The translations under genes were made by a program, and so were the position numbers. Positions 1 through 45,741 of a DNA stretch of 45,741 bases are shown here, in pieces. This DNA is from Bacteroidetes bacterium RIFCSPLOWO2_12_FULL_35_15 (GTDB lineage: Bacteria; Bacteroidota; Bacteroidia; 2-12-FULL-35-15). How positions within the stretch are numbered: position 1 is the first letter of the stretch; each line of letters begins with the position of its first letter. The notes beneath the pieces were generated by a model. It was not told the DNA's origin and did no database searches. It saw only the letters and a program-made list of their open reading frames with translations. The DNA lies in contig MEPB01000081.1 of NCBI GenBank assembly GCA_001769385.1, positions 1 to 45,741 of the forward strand, written 5' to 3'.

Positions 1-58
1 TAATTTCTATTAGTTCCATTTTACAAATATAATAATTCTACCTTATCATATGACATTG

Positions 59-90
59 CCTTTCGGAGAGGGATTAAGGGTGAGGTCAGA
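59..90. repeat. Dispersed GAGAGG-type repeat (solo copy)
   Basis: Positions 64-88 match 21 of 25 bases of the right inverted repeat of the DUF559 element in metH (44371-44395), sharing CGGAGAGGG and GGGTGAGGTCA. It lies in the intergenic space downstream of uvrC. A second common Bacteroidota-type repeat, containing TTCGTTTCACTCAGAATGAC, follows at about 136-160. The rest of positions 1-164 shows no gene. Confidence 0.65.
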
Positions 91-40726: not shown

Positions 40727-40746
40727 ATAAAATCTCTTCTTTTTTA

Positions 40747-40770
40747 CGGAGAGGGACTGAGGAGAGGTAA
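40747..40770. repeat. Degenerate GAGAGG-type repeat before metH
   Basis: CGGAGAGGGACTGAGGAGAG resembles the right inverted repeat of the DUF559 element with one deletion. It occupies the space directly before the metH start, 10 nt from its ATG. Confidence 0.6.
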
Positions 40771-40780
40771 AAAGAAAATT

Positions 40781-43700
40781 ATGACAGATATTAGAAAAGA
40801 ACTAGAAAAGCGTGTATTGGTGATTGATGGTGCAATGGGCAGTATGATCCAACAATACAAACTGGAAGAAAAAGATTTTCGTGGAAAACGATTTACAAAC
40901 TGGCACAAAGATCTGCAAGGCAATAATGATTTGCTATCCATTACTCAACCGCAGATCATAAAAACCATTCATAAAGAATATTTAAAGGCTGGTGCAGACA
41001 TCATTGAAACCAATACCTTTAGCGATACCGCTGTTGCAATGGCTGATTATGATATGCAGGAATTTGTATATGAATTAAATTTCGAATCAGCAAAAATTGC
41101 AAAGGAAGCAATACAGGAATTTTTTAAAGAATTTCCGGCACAAGCGGCTACTCCCCGATTTGTGGCAGGAGCATTTGGTCCGACCAATCGTACACTTTCA
41201 TTATCACCAAATGTAAATGACCCCGGATTTCGTGCTATTACTTTTGATGAATTGGTAGCGGCCTATACCGAACAAGCACGTGGATTGATTGATGGCGGTG
41301 CTGATCTGTTATTGGTAGAAACTATTTTCGACACCTTAAATGCAAAAGCTGCCTTGTTTGCCATTCAAAATTATTGCGAAAAAATAAACAGAAAAATGCC
41401 GGTAATGGTTTCCGGAACTATTACTGATGCAAGTGGAAGAACACTTTCAGGGCAAACTACTGAAGCGTTTTTAAATTCCATTTCTCATGTTGATTTGTTA
41501 AGTGTTGGTCTGAATTGCGCATTGGGTGCGAAAGATATGCGTCCTTATTTAGAAGAACTTTCTGAGAAAGCTCCTTTTTATGTGAGTGCCTACCCAAATG
41601 CAGGTTTACCGAATCAGTTTGGTGAATACGATCAGGATGCTCATGAAATGGGTCATGAGATCGAAGGATTTTTAAAAGCAGGATTCTTAAATATTGTCGG
41701 AGGTTGTTGTGGAACTACTCCTGAACACATCAAACGTATTGCTGAAATTGCAAAAAATGCTAAGCCGCGTAAAAAGCCACAACCAGACACATTGCTTCAC
41801 CTGAGCGGCTTGGAGCCATTAACGCTTCGCCCCGAAAGTAATTTTATGAATGTGGGTGAACGAACAAATGTGACCGGATCAAAAAAATTCTTACGATTAA
41901 TTAAAGAAGGAAATTACGAGGAGGCCCTTTCTATTGCAAAGGATCAAGTAGATGGTGGTGCCCAGGTAATTGATGTGAACATGGATGAAGGCATGTTGGA
42001 CAGTGAAGCAGCTATGACAAAATTTTTAAATCTCATTGCTTCCGAACCTGATATTTCAAGAGTTCCCATCATGATCGATTCATCCAAATGGAGCGTGATA
42101 GAAGCCGGATTGAAATGCGTTCAGGGAAAAGCAATTGTAAATTCTATTTCCTTAAAAGAAGGTGAAGAAAAATTTATTGAATATGCACATAAAGTAAAAC
42201 AATATGGCGCAGCAGTTATTGTAATGGCTTTTGATGAAGTCGGACAAGCGGATACCTTACAGCGCAGAAAAGATATTTGTAAACGTGCCTATGATATTTT
42301 AGTGAATAAAGTTCATTTTCCTGCGCAGGACATTATTTTCGATCCGAATATATTTCCGGTTGCGACCGGAATGGAAGAGCATCGTTTGAATGCACTCGAT
42401 TTTTTTAATGCAACAAAATGGATCAAAGAAAATTTACCACATGCAAAAGTAAGTGGTGGTGTAAGTAATGTTTCTTTCTCCTTCCGAGGAAACGACCATG
42501 TGCGAGAAGCCATTCATGGTGCATTTTTATATCATGCTGTAAAAAATGGAATGGATATGGGAATCGTTAATCCATCGCAATTGCAGGTGTATGATGATAT
42601 CGATAAAACATTGTTGGAATTAGTTGAAGATGTTTTACTGAACAGAAGAGATGATGCTACCGAACGATTGGTTGAACATGCTGAATCATTGAAAGGGATA
42701 ACAAAAGAAAAAACAGAAAAAGATGAAGAATGGAGAAAAGGAAGTGTTGAAGAACGACTGAGTCATGCTCTGGTAAAAGGATTAGTAGAATATATTGATG
42801 TGGATACCGAAGAGGCGCGAATTAAATTAGGAAGACCTTTATACGTTATTGAAGGTCCGCTCATGGATGGAATGAACATAGTAGGTGATCTGTTTAGTTG
42901 CGGAAAAATGTTTTTACCACAAGTGGTGAAGAGTGCACGTGTAATGAAAAAAGCAGTCGCTTATCTGGAGCCTTTTTTACAAGCCGAAAAAGATGCAAAT
43001 AAATTAGCCGGTATTGTTGGTGATGGAAGAACTAACGCAGGAAAAATATTAATGGCTACCGTAAAAGGCGATGTGCATGATATCGGAAAAAACATTGTGG
43101 GTGTTGTATTAGCTTGCAATAATTATGAGATCATCGATTTAGGTGTTATGGTTTCTTGCGATAAAATTTTAGAAGAAGCAAAAAAACATAATGTTGATAT
43201 TATTGGCTTAAGTGGATTGATCACTCCATCATTGGATGAAATGGTACATGTTGCAAAAGAAATGGAACGTTTGGGTTTTAAAACGCCCTTATTAATTGGT
43301 GGCGCAACTACATCGAAGGTTCATACTGCTGTAAAAATTGCACAAAATTATTCAGGACCTGTGGTGCATGTAAATGATGCAAGTAAATCGGTGCCTGTTG
43401 CAAGTAGCTTAATTTCAGAGGTGCTGAGAGGAGAGTTTATGAGTGGAATAAATCTGGAATACGACCGTGTGCGTGAACAAAATAAAAACAATCAAAGTCA
43501 AAATAAATTTATTTCTATTGAAGAAGCGCGAATAAATAAATTTCCGATTGATTGGAATAAAACAGAAATTGCGAAACCACTATTTATTGGGAATAAGGTT
43601 TTTGATAATTATTCTTTAGCTGAAATTGCTGAATACATTGACTGGACACCATTTTTTCATAGCTGGGAAATGAAAGGTTCGTATCCAAAAATTTTGGAAG

Positions 43701-44926
43701 ACAAAGAACGTGGTGCAGAAGCAAAAAGTTTATTTGCAGATGCACAAAAAATGTTGAAACAGATCATCAACGAAAAATGGTTGACTGCAAATGCGGTGAT
43801 TGGAATTTTTCCGACAAATGCGGTTGGGGATGATATACACCTCTCCCCGACCCTCTCCACAGGAAAGGGAGACGTGGTGTTACATACTTTGCGTCAACAA
43901 ACAAAAAAACCTGCCGGGCAATATAATGTTGCGTTGGCGGATTTTGTAAAACCGAAAGACCTCACCCCTAACCCCTCTCCGAAGGAGAGGGGAACAGCTC
44001 CTAGATACCATACTGCTGATTGGAAGAATTGGAGCAGAAATTCAGAACGCGCTAAACAAATGCGCAAAGAACCAACTTCTGCAGAGGAAAAATTATGGGA
44101 AGCTTTGCGAAATAGAAAATTAGATTCCAAATTTAGAAGACAACACCCTATCGGACAATTTATTGCTGATTTTGTTTGCATTGAACAAAAATTGATTATC
44201 GAAGTGGATGGAGAAATTCATGATCATCAAAAAGAATATGATGCCGGGAGAACTTACATATTAGAAGATATAGGTTATAGAGTAATTCGTTTTTCTAACG
44301 ATGCTGTTTTAAATACAATTGATGCGGTGATTGAAAAAATTAAATCGGAGCTATCTTATCCCCTCTCTCACGGAGAGGGGCTGGGGGTGAGGTCAACGCA
44401 CACTGGAGAGGGGTGTGACTACATCGGCTCTTTTGCCCTAACAACCGGTATAGGAATTGATGAACATATTGCTCGATTTGAAAAAGACCATGATGATTAT
44501 TCTGCTATTATGTTAAAAGCATTAGCAGACCGTCTAGCAGAAGCCTTTGCAGAATTGATGCATAAAAAAGTTCGTACAGAAATTTGGGGCTATTCAAAAA
44601 ATGAAGATCTTTCTAAAGAAGATTTGATTAAAGAAGAATATGCAGGTATTCGTCCTGCACCGGGTTATCCGGCACAACCCGATCATACAGAAAAACCACT
44701 TATCTGGAAATTGTTGGAAGTAGAAAAGAATACTGGAATTACTTTAACAGAAAGTATGGCAATGGTTCCTACTGCTGCTGTGAGTGGATTTTATTTTGCG
44801 CACCCACAATCACATTATTTTGGAATTGGAAAAATTCAAAAGGATCAAATTGAAGATTATGCAAAAAGAAAAGGAATGACTTTGCAAGAGACAGAACGTT
44901 GGCTTGGACCAAATTTAGCGTATTGA
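40781..44926 (+). CDS. metH: Cobalamin-dependent methionine synthase with in-frame DUF559 insertion
   Basis: Transfers a methyl group from methyltetrahydrofolate through cobalamin to homocysteine. Layout: homocysteine domain (about 1-325; Zn ligands Cys246, Cys309, Cys310 in GLNCALG and GGCCGTT), pterin domain (about 345-610), cobalamin cap and B12 domain (about 645-890; DVHDIGKN with His766), and reactivation domain (about 905-1381; [16 protein letters not shown]). At 1381 aa it is about 150 longer than the ~1230 usual. Residues 1060-1205 are a DUF559 nuclease element lying between FVKPK and DYIGSF in the reactivation domain (see 43958-44415). The frame is open throughout, so the gene may still work. 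It is controlled by the SAM riboswitch upstream. Confidence 0.95.
43840..43873. repeat. Solo repeat copy inside metH
   Basis: CACCTCTCCCCGACCCTCTC CACAGG-type sequence encodes [13 protein letters not shown] in the metH reactivation domain. The DNA resembles the dispersed repeat, and the peptide replaces an acidic loop (typically ...DESR) in other MetH proteins as I recall them. It is in frame and lies 86 nt before the DUF559 element. Confidence 0.6.
43958..44415. mobile_element. DUF559 nuclease element with 35-bp inverted repeats, in frame in metH
   Basis: Left arm 43958-43992 and right arm 44360-44394 are inverted repeats, identical at 30 of 35 positions. Each arm has its own hairpin, CCCCTCTCC-GAA-GGAGAGGGG on the left. 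Between them about 120 codons encode a Vsr-like DUF559 domain with an apparently intact core: [39 protein letters not shown] second degenerate repeat piece (CACTGGAGAGGGGTGTG, about 44400-44416) follows. The arms encode [12 protein letters not shown] and [10 protein letters not shown], so the frame is kept. No intein splicing motifs are seen. It may be a REP-like element mobilised by, or carrying, the nuclease. Confidence 0.8.
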
Positions 44927-44994: not shown

Positions 44995-45085
44995 CAGTGG
45001 AAAACCCGCAGCGCAGCGAGGATTTGAAGCCCTTCGACTTCGCTCAGGATAAACTCCTAGCCCGACCCGCAGGGGAACGCCCAAA
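44995..45085. repeat. Dispersed Bacteroidota-type intergenic repeat
   Basis: Sequence containing CCCTTCGACTTCGCTCAGGA and CCCGACCCGCAGGGGAACGC, unlike the surrounding AT-rich DNA. It matches repeat sequences I have seen scattered between genes in Bacteroidota genomes. No gene is supported between metH and the oxidoreductase. Confidence 0.55.
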
Positions 45086-45123: not shown

Positions 45124-45650
45124 TTGAAAACATTTTCCACATATAAATTTCAATCATCCGGGAAAACAGCTATAAATCGCATTGTATTAGCTCCAATGAC
45201 AAATGGCCAAAGCAACGAAGATGGAACATTGGGCGATGATGAATACAACTGGCTTGTAAGAAGAGCAAAAGAAGGATTTGGAATAATTATTACGTGTGCT
45301 TCCAACGTATCTGAAGAAGGAAAAGGATGGAAAGGAGAACTGGGCATTTATGCTGATAAACATATTGAAGGACTAACTCGATTAGTAAAAGGAATAAAAC
45401 TCTATAACTCATTAGCCATCGTTCAAGTTTTTCATGGCGGAGCCAGAAGTCCGGAAAGTGTTACAGGAAAACAACCCTGGAGTGCAAGTGCTCACTCCAT
45501 GAATTCCCCGCAAGGAACAATTGAAATTCGTGAAGGGAATGAAACTGAAATTTTAAAAGTTATTTCTGATTTTGTTGCTGCAACGAAACGTGCCCACACA
45601 GCAGGATTTGATGGAGTTGAATTACATGGTGCCCATGGTTATTTATTACA
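45124..45650 (+). pseudogene. NADH:flavin oxidoreductase (old yellow enzyme) fragment, split by an intron
   Basis: The N-terminal ~175 residues of an FMN-dependent ene-reductase. From TTG 45124 it reads MKTFSTYKFQSSGKTAINRIVLAPMTNG (FMN-barrel start), then QVFHGGARSPE and FDGVELHGAHGYLL, the catalytic-loop region. The frame is broken after HGAHGYLL by a group II intron, whose sequence supplies a TAG. The remaining part of the barrel is expected beyond the intron, outside the window. Because the intron is antisense to the gene it cannot be removed from this mRNA, so the gene is probably inactivated. Confidence 0.88.
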
Positions 45651-45741
45651 GTAGAGTAGGCAAAGGCATTTCAGCCTAAGCCTCTCACAGAACCGTACGT
45701 GAAGCTCTCACTTCATACGGCTCTTCTTGACAGTTTAGCCT
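45651..45741 (-). mobile_element. Group II intron, 3' end (domains V and VI)
   Basis: On the minus strand, 45723-45690 is a 34-nt domain V, GAGCCGTATGAAGTGAGAGC / TTCACGTACGGTTC, with the AGC catalytic triad and paired arms. It is followed by domain VI with GGC/GCC pairs, a probable branch-point A about seven nt from the end and a 3' terminus ...CTAC at 45651. The intron continues out of the window, where its reverse transcriptase should lie. Its orientation is antisense to the oxidoreductase it interrupts. Confidence 0.9.

Follow-up and report, generated by a model that had tools for sequence, protein, structure and literature searches.

A 437-bp segment lying in frame within the metH gene (43958-44394, plus strand, arm end to arm end, as delimited by empty-site relatives) is probably a selfish, homing-type mobile element, consisting of a DUF559 endonuclease ORF between inverted arms with a build capable of triplex folding. 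The segment belongs to the window, by which we mean the whole stretch of 45,741 nucleotides that was analysed. More tentatively, and staying slightly on the side of doubt, we propose that DUF559 proteins are the mobility enzymes of the BoxC/PIT/TM repeats, those of E. coli included, and that elements of this kind form a new triplex-ended class, one lineage of which would be an unspliced in-frame parasite jumping between essential enzymes.

The host ORF, metH (40781-44926, plus strand; 1381 aa; ORF list and Pfam), encodes B12-dependent methionine synthase. Pfam finds S-methyl_trans, Pterin_bind, B12-binding_2, B12-binding and a split Met_synt_B12 domain in its product, the two pieces of the last (43616-43960 and 44414-44875) flanking DUF559 on either side, and in G000 metH is the sole ORF with a Met_synt_B12 domain. 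An earlier note on this DNA had described a DUF559 domain with an intact-looking core, placed without loss of frame in a loop of the metH reactivation domain and free of intein motifs, and on these points it was borne out. The domain (PF04480; 44039-44353, plus strand; MetH aa 1087-1191) is matched with a Pfam E-value of 2.5e-37 and has its conserved residues, the reading frame is open all through metH, and comparison with the E. coli activation domain 1MSK puts the insertion between residues 154 and 159. From the extent given there, 43958-44415, the start holds and the end does not: read in frame, the insert spans 153 codons, 43958-44416.

No intein or Hint family was reported in the window MetH (Pfam, E <= 1e-3), nor in a further 22 fused ORFs searched at thresholds that a weak match could escape (E <= 1e-15 for NCBIfam, E <= 1e-10 for Pfam), and with Hint and splicing families absent from all these matches an intein was rejected. 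An insertion sequence was rejected as well: the element codes for DUF559 alone, and no DDE, serine or tyrosine transposase was found in it. As to target-site duplications, which the earlier note had hoped to find, none was noticed by eye at the compared sites, although divergence among the relatives is too great for this to carry much weight. Between the right arm and MetH lies a residue, AACGCACACTGGAGAGGGGTGT (44395-44416, plus strand; by eye), and the bases directly past the right arm, GGAGAGGGGTGTGAC, are by eye similar to the end of the arms of type B, the second of two element types found at this site in relatives. The residue is possibly the trace of an earlier type-B occupant, on whose old scar a type-A element would have landed, a suggestive observation from a single case.

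The inverted arms (43958-43993 and 44359-44394) are 36 nt long, 86% complementary and 365 nt apart, which agrees with the 35-bp inverted repeats, each itself a hairpin, that had first been described. On the plus strand, the left arm consists of GA and the tail CCTCACCCC (43960-43968), the linker TAA (43969-43971) and the hairpin CCCCTCTCC-GAA-GGAGAGGGG (43972-43992); on the minus strand it reads hairpin-TTA-GGGGTGAGG, a potential purine-motif intrastrand triplex. The right arm is inverted and is read on the minus strand, with the tail CCTCACCCC (44392-44384), the linker CAG (44383-44381) and the hairpin CCCCTCTC-CGTGA-GAGAGGGG (44380-44360). Hairpin folding of the two arms gives -10/-9.9 and -8.7 kcal/mol, respectively, and out of 200 shuffles, 0 and 0 fold as well on the two strands for the first arm, and 7 and 3 for the second.

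Other claims about the repeat fared less well. The solo copies placed at 64-88, 40747-40770 and 43840-43873 proved weak: the first is a half arm (61-88) adjoining an IS-like end, no hairpin fold was found for the second (40744-40776), and the third folds no better than shuffles. The third (43840-43873, plus strand) is, on our reading, an in-frame arm that has degenerated; it lies in an adjacent loop of MetH, where L006, L013 and L022 have intact arms. A custom detector, run on 375 kb sampled from this genome, found two intact mirror arms, both the element's own, a count on which we reject an abundant repeat family here; the stem pattern has 12 matches in the 5.39 Mb of this genome. The earlier note took the repeat for a REP-type family; the arms are not Y1/RAYT REPs, have the build of a triplex motif and are rare in this genome. 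The IS-like end, GGCAATGTCATATGATAAGG..., adjoins half a TM-type hairpin in three of the five copies observed (window 1-90, the end of L003 and the start of L187), the neighbour in the other two being another C-rich sequence, a hairpin in one of them. It breaks contigs at these places and may represent an IS targeting such hairpin loops. The exact tail-linker-stem string of the window 1-90 and L187 copies has 12 hits in the genome.

All arms follow one plan of tail, linker and hairpin, and of 85 unique arms 57 have a linker of 3 nt. The stem is mirrored in the tail, not complemented (z 12.5 against permutation; 83 unique stems); treating A and T as equal raises the mirror match to z 13.4, and a direct-repeat reading gives z 2.1 (3.3 with A and T equal). 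Stem C is paired with tail C in 484 of 497 cases, a count that arises partly by construction because the C/non-C register was selected beforehand, and the 196 stem T are paired with tail T (104) or A (86), a split that was not selected. The triads implied by this covariation are G.G-C and A/T.A-T, and in a variant present in this genome (12 exact hits of CCTCACCCTTAATCCCTCTCC) both sides change together, as CCCT-TAA-TCCC. On the G-rich strand, the stem-tail rule is, as judged from covariation, the rule of the antiparallel purine triplex, and the arms may form such triplexes in cells.

The class II purine motif has stems between 6 and 15 nt and loops between 1 and 6 nt, with a third strand that mirrors the purine strand in G.G-C plus A/T.A-T triads. 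By eye, the left arm of the window fits them, with a stem of 9, loops of 3 and 3 and all triads allowed, and departs from the exact TMECO consensus in that its stem is shifted by one base. Arm orientation relative to the gene is mixed, with 115 distal and 71 proximal tails. In L132, L171 and L232, the linker between tail and stem is by eye itself a hairpin, an arrangement in which tail and stem would still be held together. The BoxC, PIT and TM motifs of E. coli fold as intrastrand triplexes in vitro and occur as inverted pairs with TTA/CCG loops, and the copies reported in E. coli are intergenic only (Holder et al., 2015; PMC4666352). For the motif in cells, the same paper reports no DMS protection, though a polymerase stop, so that footprinting did not reveal a stable triplex, and relates that mobility activities were never found near it (PMC4666352).

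Turning to the nuclease, Q35, D44, E55, D57 and H61 (numbered from 44039) are all present in the window domain; Q, D, E and D are retained in 53/53 fused domains, and H in 52/53. The dN/dS ratio is 0.05-0.19 in the fused groups where it was computable, and 0.04-0.19 over all groups computed, many dS values being above 1 or saturated. A Foldseek search with a model of the domain (pLDDT 84) returned 3HRL (NGO0050, E 1.4e-6) first, I-Bth0305I next (TM 0.71) and Vsr at rank 7. In a profile search, 3HRL and I-Bth0305I were again the top two matches, and the profile match to 3R3P (E 6.9e-7), taken with the Foldseek TM of 0.71, points to kinship with homing endonucleases. This reading of the fold is based on the domain model; the model of the MetH C-terminus is moderate (pLDDT 63, pTM 0.50). 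The nuclease looks active and is under purifying selection. In L114, a DUF559 ORF ends, at its C-terminus, in a run of about seven tandem peptides that are nearly identical to one another and of the type encoded by arms (IPLTPFFKGEEQEVTL...).

In-frame insertion into essential genes, as claimed for metH, was upheld and can be widened to many conserved enzymes. Our loci were chosen best-scoring first, not at random: 59 of the 67 rows of the genus listing were taken, 170 of 296 genomes of the phylum Bacteroidota have a DUF559 match, and 83 further loci were taken from at least about 150 rows. Among the 142 unique DUF559 domains sampled from Bacteroidota, 55 are accompanied in their ORF by 120 or more additional residues on one side, and 47 by 60 or more on both sides. 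The hosts are MetH (two sites), LeuRS (two sites; a named case is that of Arenibacter sp. P308M17, L197), acetate-CoA ligase, HsdR, HsdM, IcmF, IleRS, PaaZ, RecB/UvrD-like helicases and DNA methylases, and there are terminal fusions to PurL, HutG, HisF and HemF. Ribonucleotide reductase, our by-eye guess for the host in L135 and L138, was rejected, as NCBIfam gives IcmF for L138.

The interrupted ORF is the only one that passes the LeuRS cut-off in 10 of 11 LeuRS genomes; in the eleventh, G021, nothing passes, and the LeuRS pieces are split over two contigs. Each of the 10 MetH genomes checked likewise has one ORF with the MetH activation domain. Because the interrupted gene is thus the sole copy, MetH and LeuRS are probably functional with the domain in place, and the domain apparently stays unspliced within its host enzymes. 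In a tree of 133 domains (the 142 minus 9 with a short flank or a partial domain), built by a quick method from few columns and rooted at the midpoint, a group of 37 (SH-aLRT 94) comprises 35 fused and 2 free domains, and is, to judge from its members, a lineage living in frame inside host ORFs.

A conserved nuclease could also be serving its host. DUF559 would then be a Vsr-like repair or defence enzyme, the arms recombination hot spots that shuffle it, and fusion merely a means of securing expression. The low dN/dS would fit a host function equally, several of the hosts are R-M or repair-type proteins, and the Caulobacter protein VsrA, which has a DUF559 domain, is described as necessary for a methyltransferase mutant to mount its SOS response and is proposed to be a repair enzyme (PMC12907096). 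We nevertheless consider this explanation unlikely: PaaZ, AcsA, HisF and HemF are hosts without an obvious link to DNA, cognate arms are found on many elements, and at one metH site the nuclease is patchily present and differs between types A and B.

The selfish-element reading draws on the company that DUF559 genes keep, which is general in the sets that we sampled, so that the first refuting case named in the earlier note, DUF559 genes lying mostly apart from the repeats, does not hold. An intact mirror arm lies within 250 nt of 89 of the 133 Bacteroidota elements (43/53 fused and 46/80 solo), on both sides in 52, and is missing at that distance in 44; in far windows about 1 kb away, a mirror arm was found in 1/256. 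The inverted-repeat score between left and right flank is at least 14 in 95/133 real pairs, 89/1330 mismatched pairs and 0/123 far pairs. A second set, drawn from two listings (30 + 10 loci) and amounting to 38 unique elements with enough flank, 3 of them from Arenibacter (a Bacteroidota) and 2 from a bacterium without a stated phylum, had a mirror arm near 22/38 elements (far, 1/74), and 21/35 (far, 1/68) with the Arenibacter elements removed. For 30 elements from the phylum of an alphaproteobacterial MAG, the arm was near in 19 (far, 1/59). The score reached 14 in 9 of 15 named loci, those of Alphaproteobacteria, Buchananbacteria, Oscillospiraceae and Gallimonas remaining below it. Nuclease identity and arm similarity are weakly correlated overall (Mantel r 0.078; maximum of 1000 permutations 0.087), and clearly so only above 60% identity.

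At the level of genomes, a DUF559 match (E <= 1e-10) occurs in 51/64 Bacteroidota genomes with the TM pattern and in 75/232 without it (Fisher p 1e-11; 296 genomes), a comparison that includes the elements' own arms and is uncorrected for shared ancestry; a reversed control pattern gave 0 in the rows scored. The 13/64 TM-pattern genomes without such a match would be natural if the arms were the mobile part, moved by some other enzyme or by replication slippage, with DUF559 a passenger between them, and the same can be said of arms elsewhere in genomes and of the solo in-frame arm pieces without nuclease in L020, L023 and L031. Such a passenger would, however, leave unexplained why the arms lie beside one gene family across both the Bacteroidota sample and the second set, and intact arms are rare elsewhere in G000, so that we judge it quite improbable.

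Mobility is best seen at the metH site itself. The MetH C-terminus was searched in 59 genomes, with no MetH match in G007 and G021, and of the 34 genomes from the same genus in which MetH was matched, 9 have DUF559 at exactly this site. The MetH tree and alignment cover 30 of the 34; in the other four (G004, G019, G023 and G029), the coordinates of the match leave no space for an insert. We labelled the 30 aligned MetH as 9 occupied, 16 empty, which provides the empty sites that had been sought, and 5 remnant, the remnants being an in-frame internal deletion (L015) and leftover arm pieces (L020, L022, L023, L031), of which those in L020, L023 and L031 are the solo in-frame pieces mentioned above. 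Two element types, A and B, which differ in nuclease sequence and in arms, share the site, and in the tree of nuclease domains each comes out as a single group (SH-aLRT 90 and 86). On the MetH tree, from which sparse columns (the insert) were dropped, type A requires as many changes as it has rows (4 and 4), and so does type B (5 and 5); moreover, the sisters L007 and L010, of types A and B, are 98% identical over the 50 bp leading up to the site and 100% over the 50 bp that follow. With the types scattered in this way and the sisters differing in type, simple vertical descent fails as an explanation. The insertion in metH is not ancestral, and it is not fixed either, contrary to the second refuting case of the earlier note; occupied, empty and remnant alleles occur scattered on the host tree at one site, as expected for a homing element. 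Exchange of metH segments by horizontal transfer and homologous recombination, without any site-specific mobility, is conceivable among related taxa with alignable flanks, but is a very improbable source of the pattern given that L007 and L010 carry different elements between near-identical flanks and that many unrelated genes, as well as another site in metH, have insertions.

We infer mobility, homing and cutting at the arms from these patterns, and the nuclease may well drive the spread of the element. In the cycle that we envisage for a selfish homing-type element, the nuclease would be translated either independently, with a start codon of its own, or as an added domain of the host enzyme, the latter in the in-frame lineage. 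Its target, to be nicked or cut, would be either an arm, possibly while extruded during replication, or a cognate site that is still empty, and repair on an element-bearing template would copy the element in. Losses would leave solo arms or in-frame deletion remnants, and in one lineage frame-keeping insertions in loops of conserved enzymes would persist. A place in frame in a conserved enzyme would provide free expression without a promoter and make inexact loss costly to the host; the in-frame habit itself would follow from selection, as essential genes tolerate only frame-keeping insertions in permissive loops. Such a cycle, with the arms or the sites that bear them as substrate, would account for cognate arms, for differing occupants at one site, for remnants, and for the conservation of the nuclease where no other transposition genes accompany it.

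Among known systems, REP/RAYT comprises hairpin repeats whose inverted pairs flank a nuclease-type gene, RAYTs being Y1 HUH enzymes with tagged REPs. Flanking hairpin pairs are common to both, whereas the DUF559 element has a Vsr-fold nuclease and mirror tails; REP/RAYT was rejected because no Y1 HUH transposase is present, the gene between the arms being DUF559 with a Vsr fold. Rickettsia palindromic elements are palindromic DNA lying in frame in protein genes, and they are not known to encode a nuclease. In-frame palindromic insertion is shared; the nuclease gene sets the DUF559 element apart. The BoxC/PIT/TM motifs have in common with our arms a hairpin, a mostly 3-nt second loop (TTA or CCG), a G-rich fold-back tail and inverted pairs, but the E. 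coli copies are reported to be intergenic only and without mobility genes nearby (PMC4666352), while those described here form the boundaries of a nuclease gene and occur inside enzymes without loss of frame. The EDxHD homing endonucleases, represented by I-Bth0305I, offer the nearest solved fold after NGO0050 and share the patchy occupancy of a site in a conserved gene; I-Bth0305I differs in being phage-encoded, residing in mobile introns and having an added DNA-binding region (PMC3943268). In the DUF559 element, by comparison, no intron was found, there is no splicing domain and the ends are triplex-type arms. The WHO elements of yeast home into a conserved enzyme gene, FBA1, and are intein-like without protein splicing, but they encode intein-zinc finger fusion proteins and replace the FBA1 3' end, whereas DUF559 stays an internal domain (PMC7282813).

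No known kind fits all of these tests, since no intein domain was found, the element is not REP/RAYT and it has no IS transposase. We therefore regard it as a new kind, with the caveat that its mobility is read from sequence patterns; its behaviour is nearest to WHO-type homing without splicing, and its ends are nearest to BoxC/PIT/TM. Among the matches listed in a literature search that covered mainly open-access papers, no title or abstract opening tied DUF559 to such repeats. For the origin of the BoxC/PIT/TM repeats, DUF559 provides a candidate enzyme, and the question becomes testable in E. coli K-12. The insertions also show that a nuclease domain enters single-copy enzymes such as LeuRS naturally and recurrently, without a splicing domain, which has a bearing on protein engineering and on how selfish DNA evolves within coding regions. 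For annotation, DUF559 fused to an enzyme should be read as an element and not as part of the enzyme.

In E. coli K-12, the TMECO consensus has a single match in the 15 kb around the gene ycjD, 168 nt past the gene end. With 23 such motifs in the genome (PMC4666352), our arithmetic puts the chance of a motif this near ycjD at about 0.4%. A fabI-ycjD-sapF query was at least 80% covered in 3333 of 5426 E. coli genomes. A clean empty ycjD site was sought and not found: in DSM 30083, the one ycjD-less strain inspected, the space between fabI and sapF is taken up by an efflux operon.

Lastly, a repeat of another kind, CCCTTCGACTTCGCTCAGG, follows metH at 45028-45049. Its near-identical reverse complement occurs in frame in the metH loop of L029, so that this loop accepts other repeat families too. 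A further in-frame repeat-like peptide, NSPLLRRGAGGE, is found in another MetH loop of L010 (the MetH of G006). The ORF at 45124-45654 looks by eye like a flavin oxidoreductase, and the sequence at which it stops, at the contig edge (45654-45741), resembles the end of a group II intron (domain V-like).
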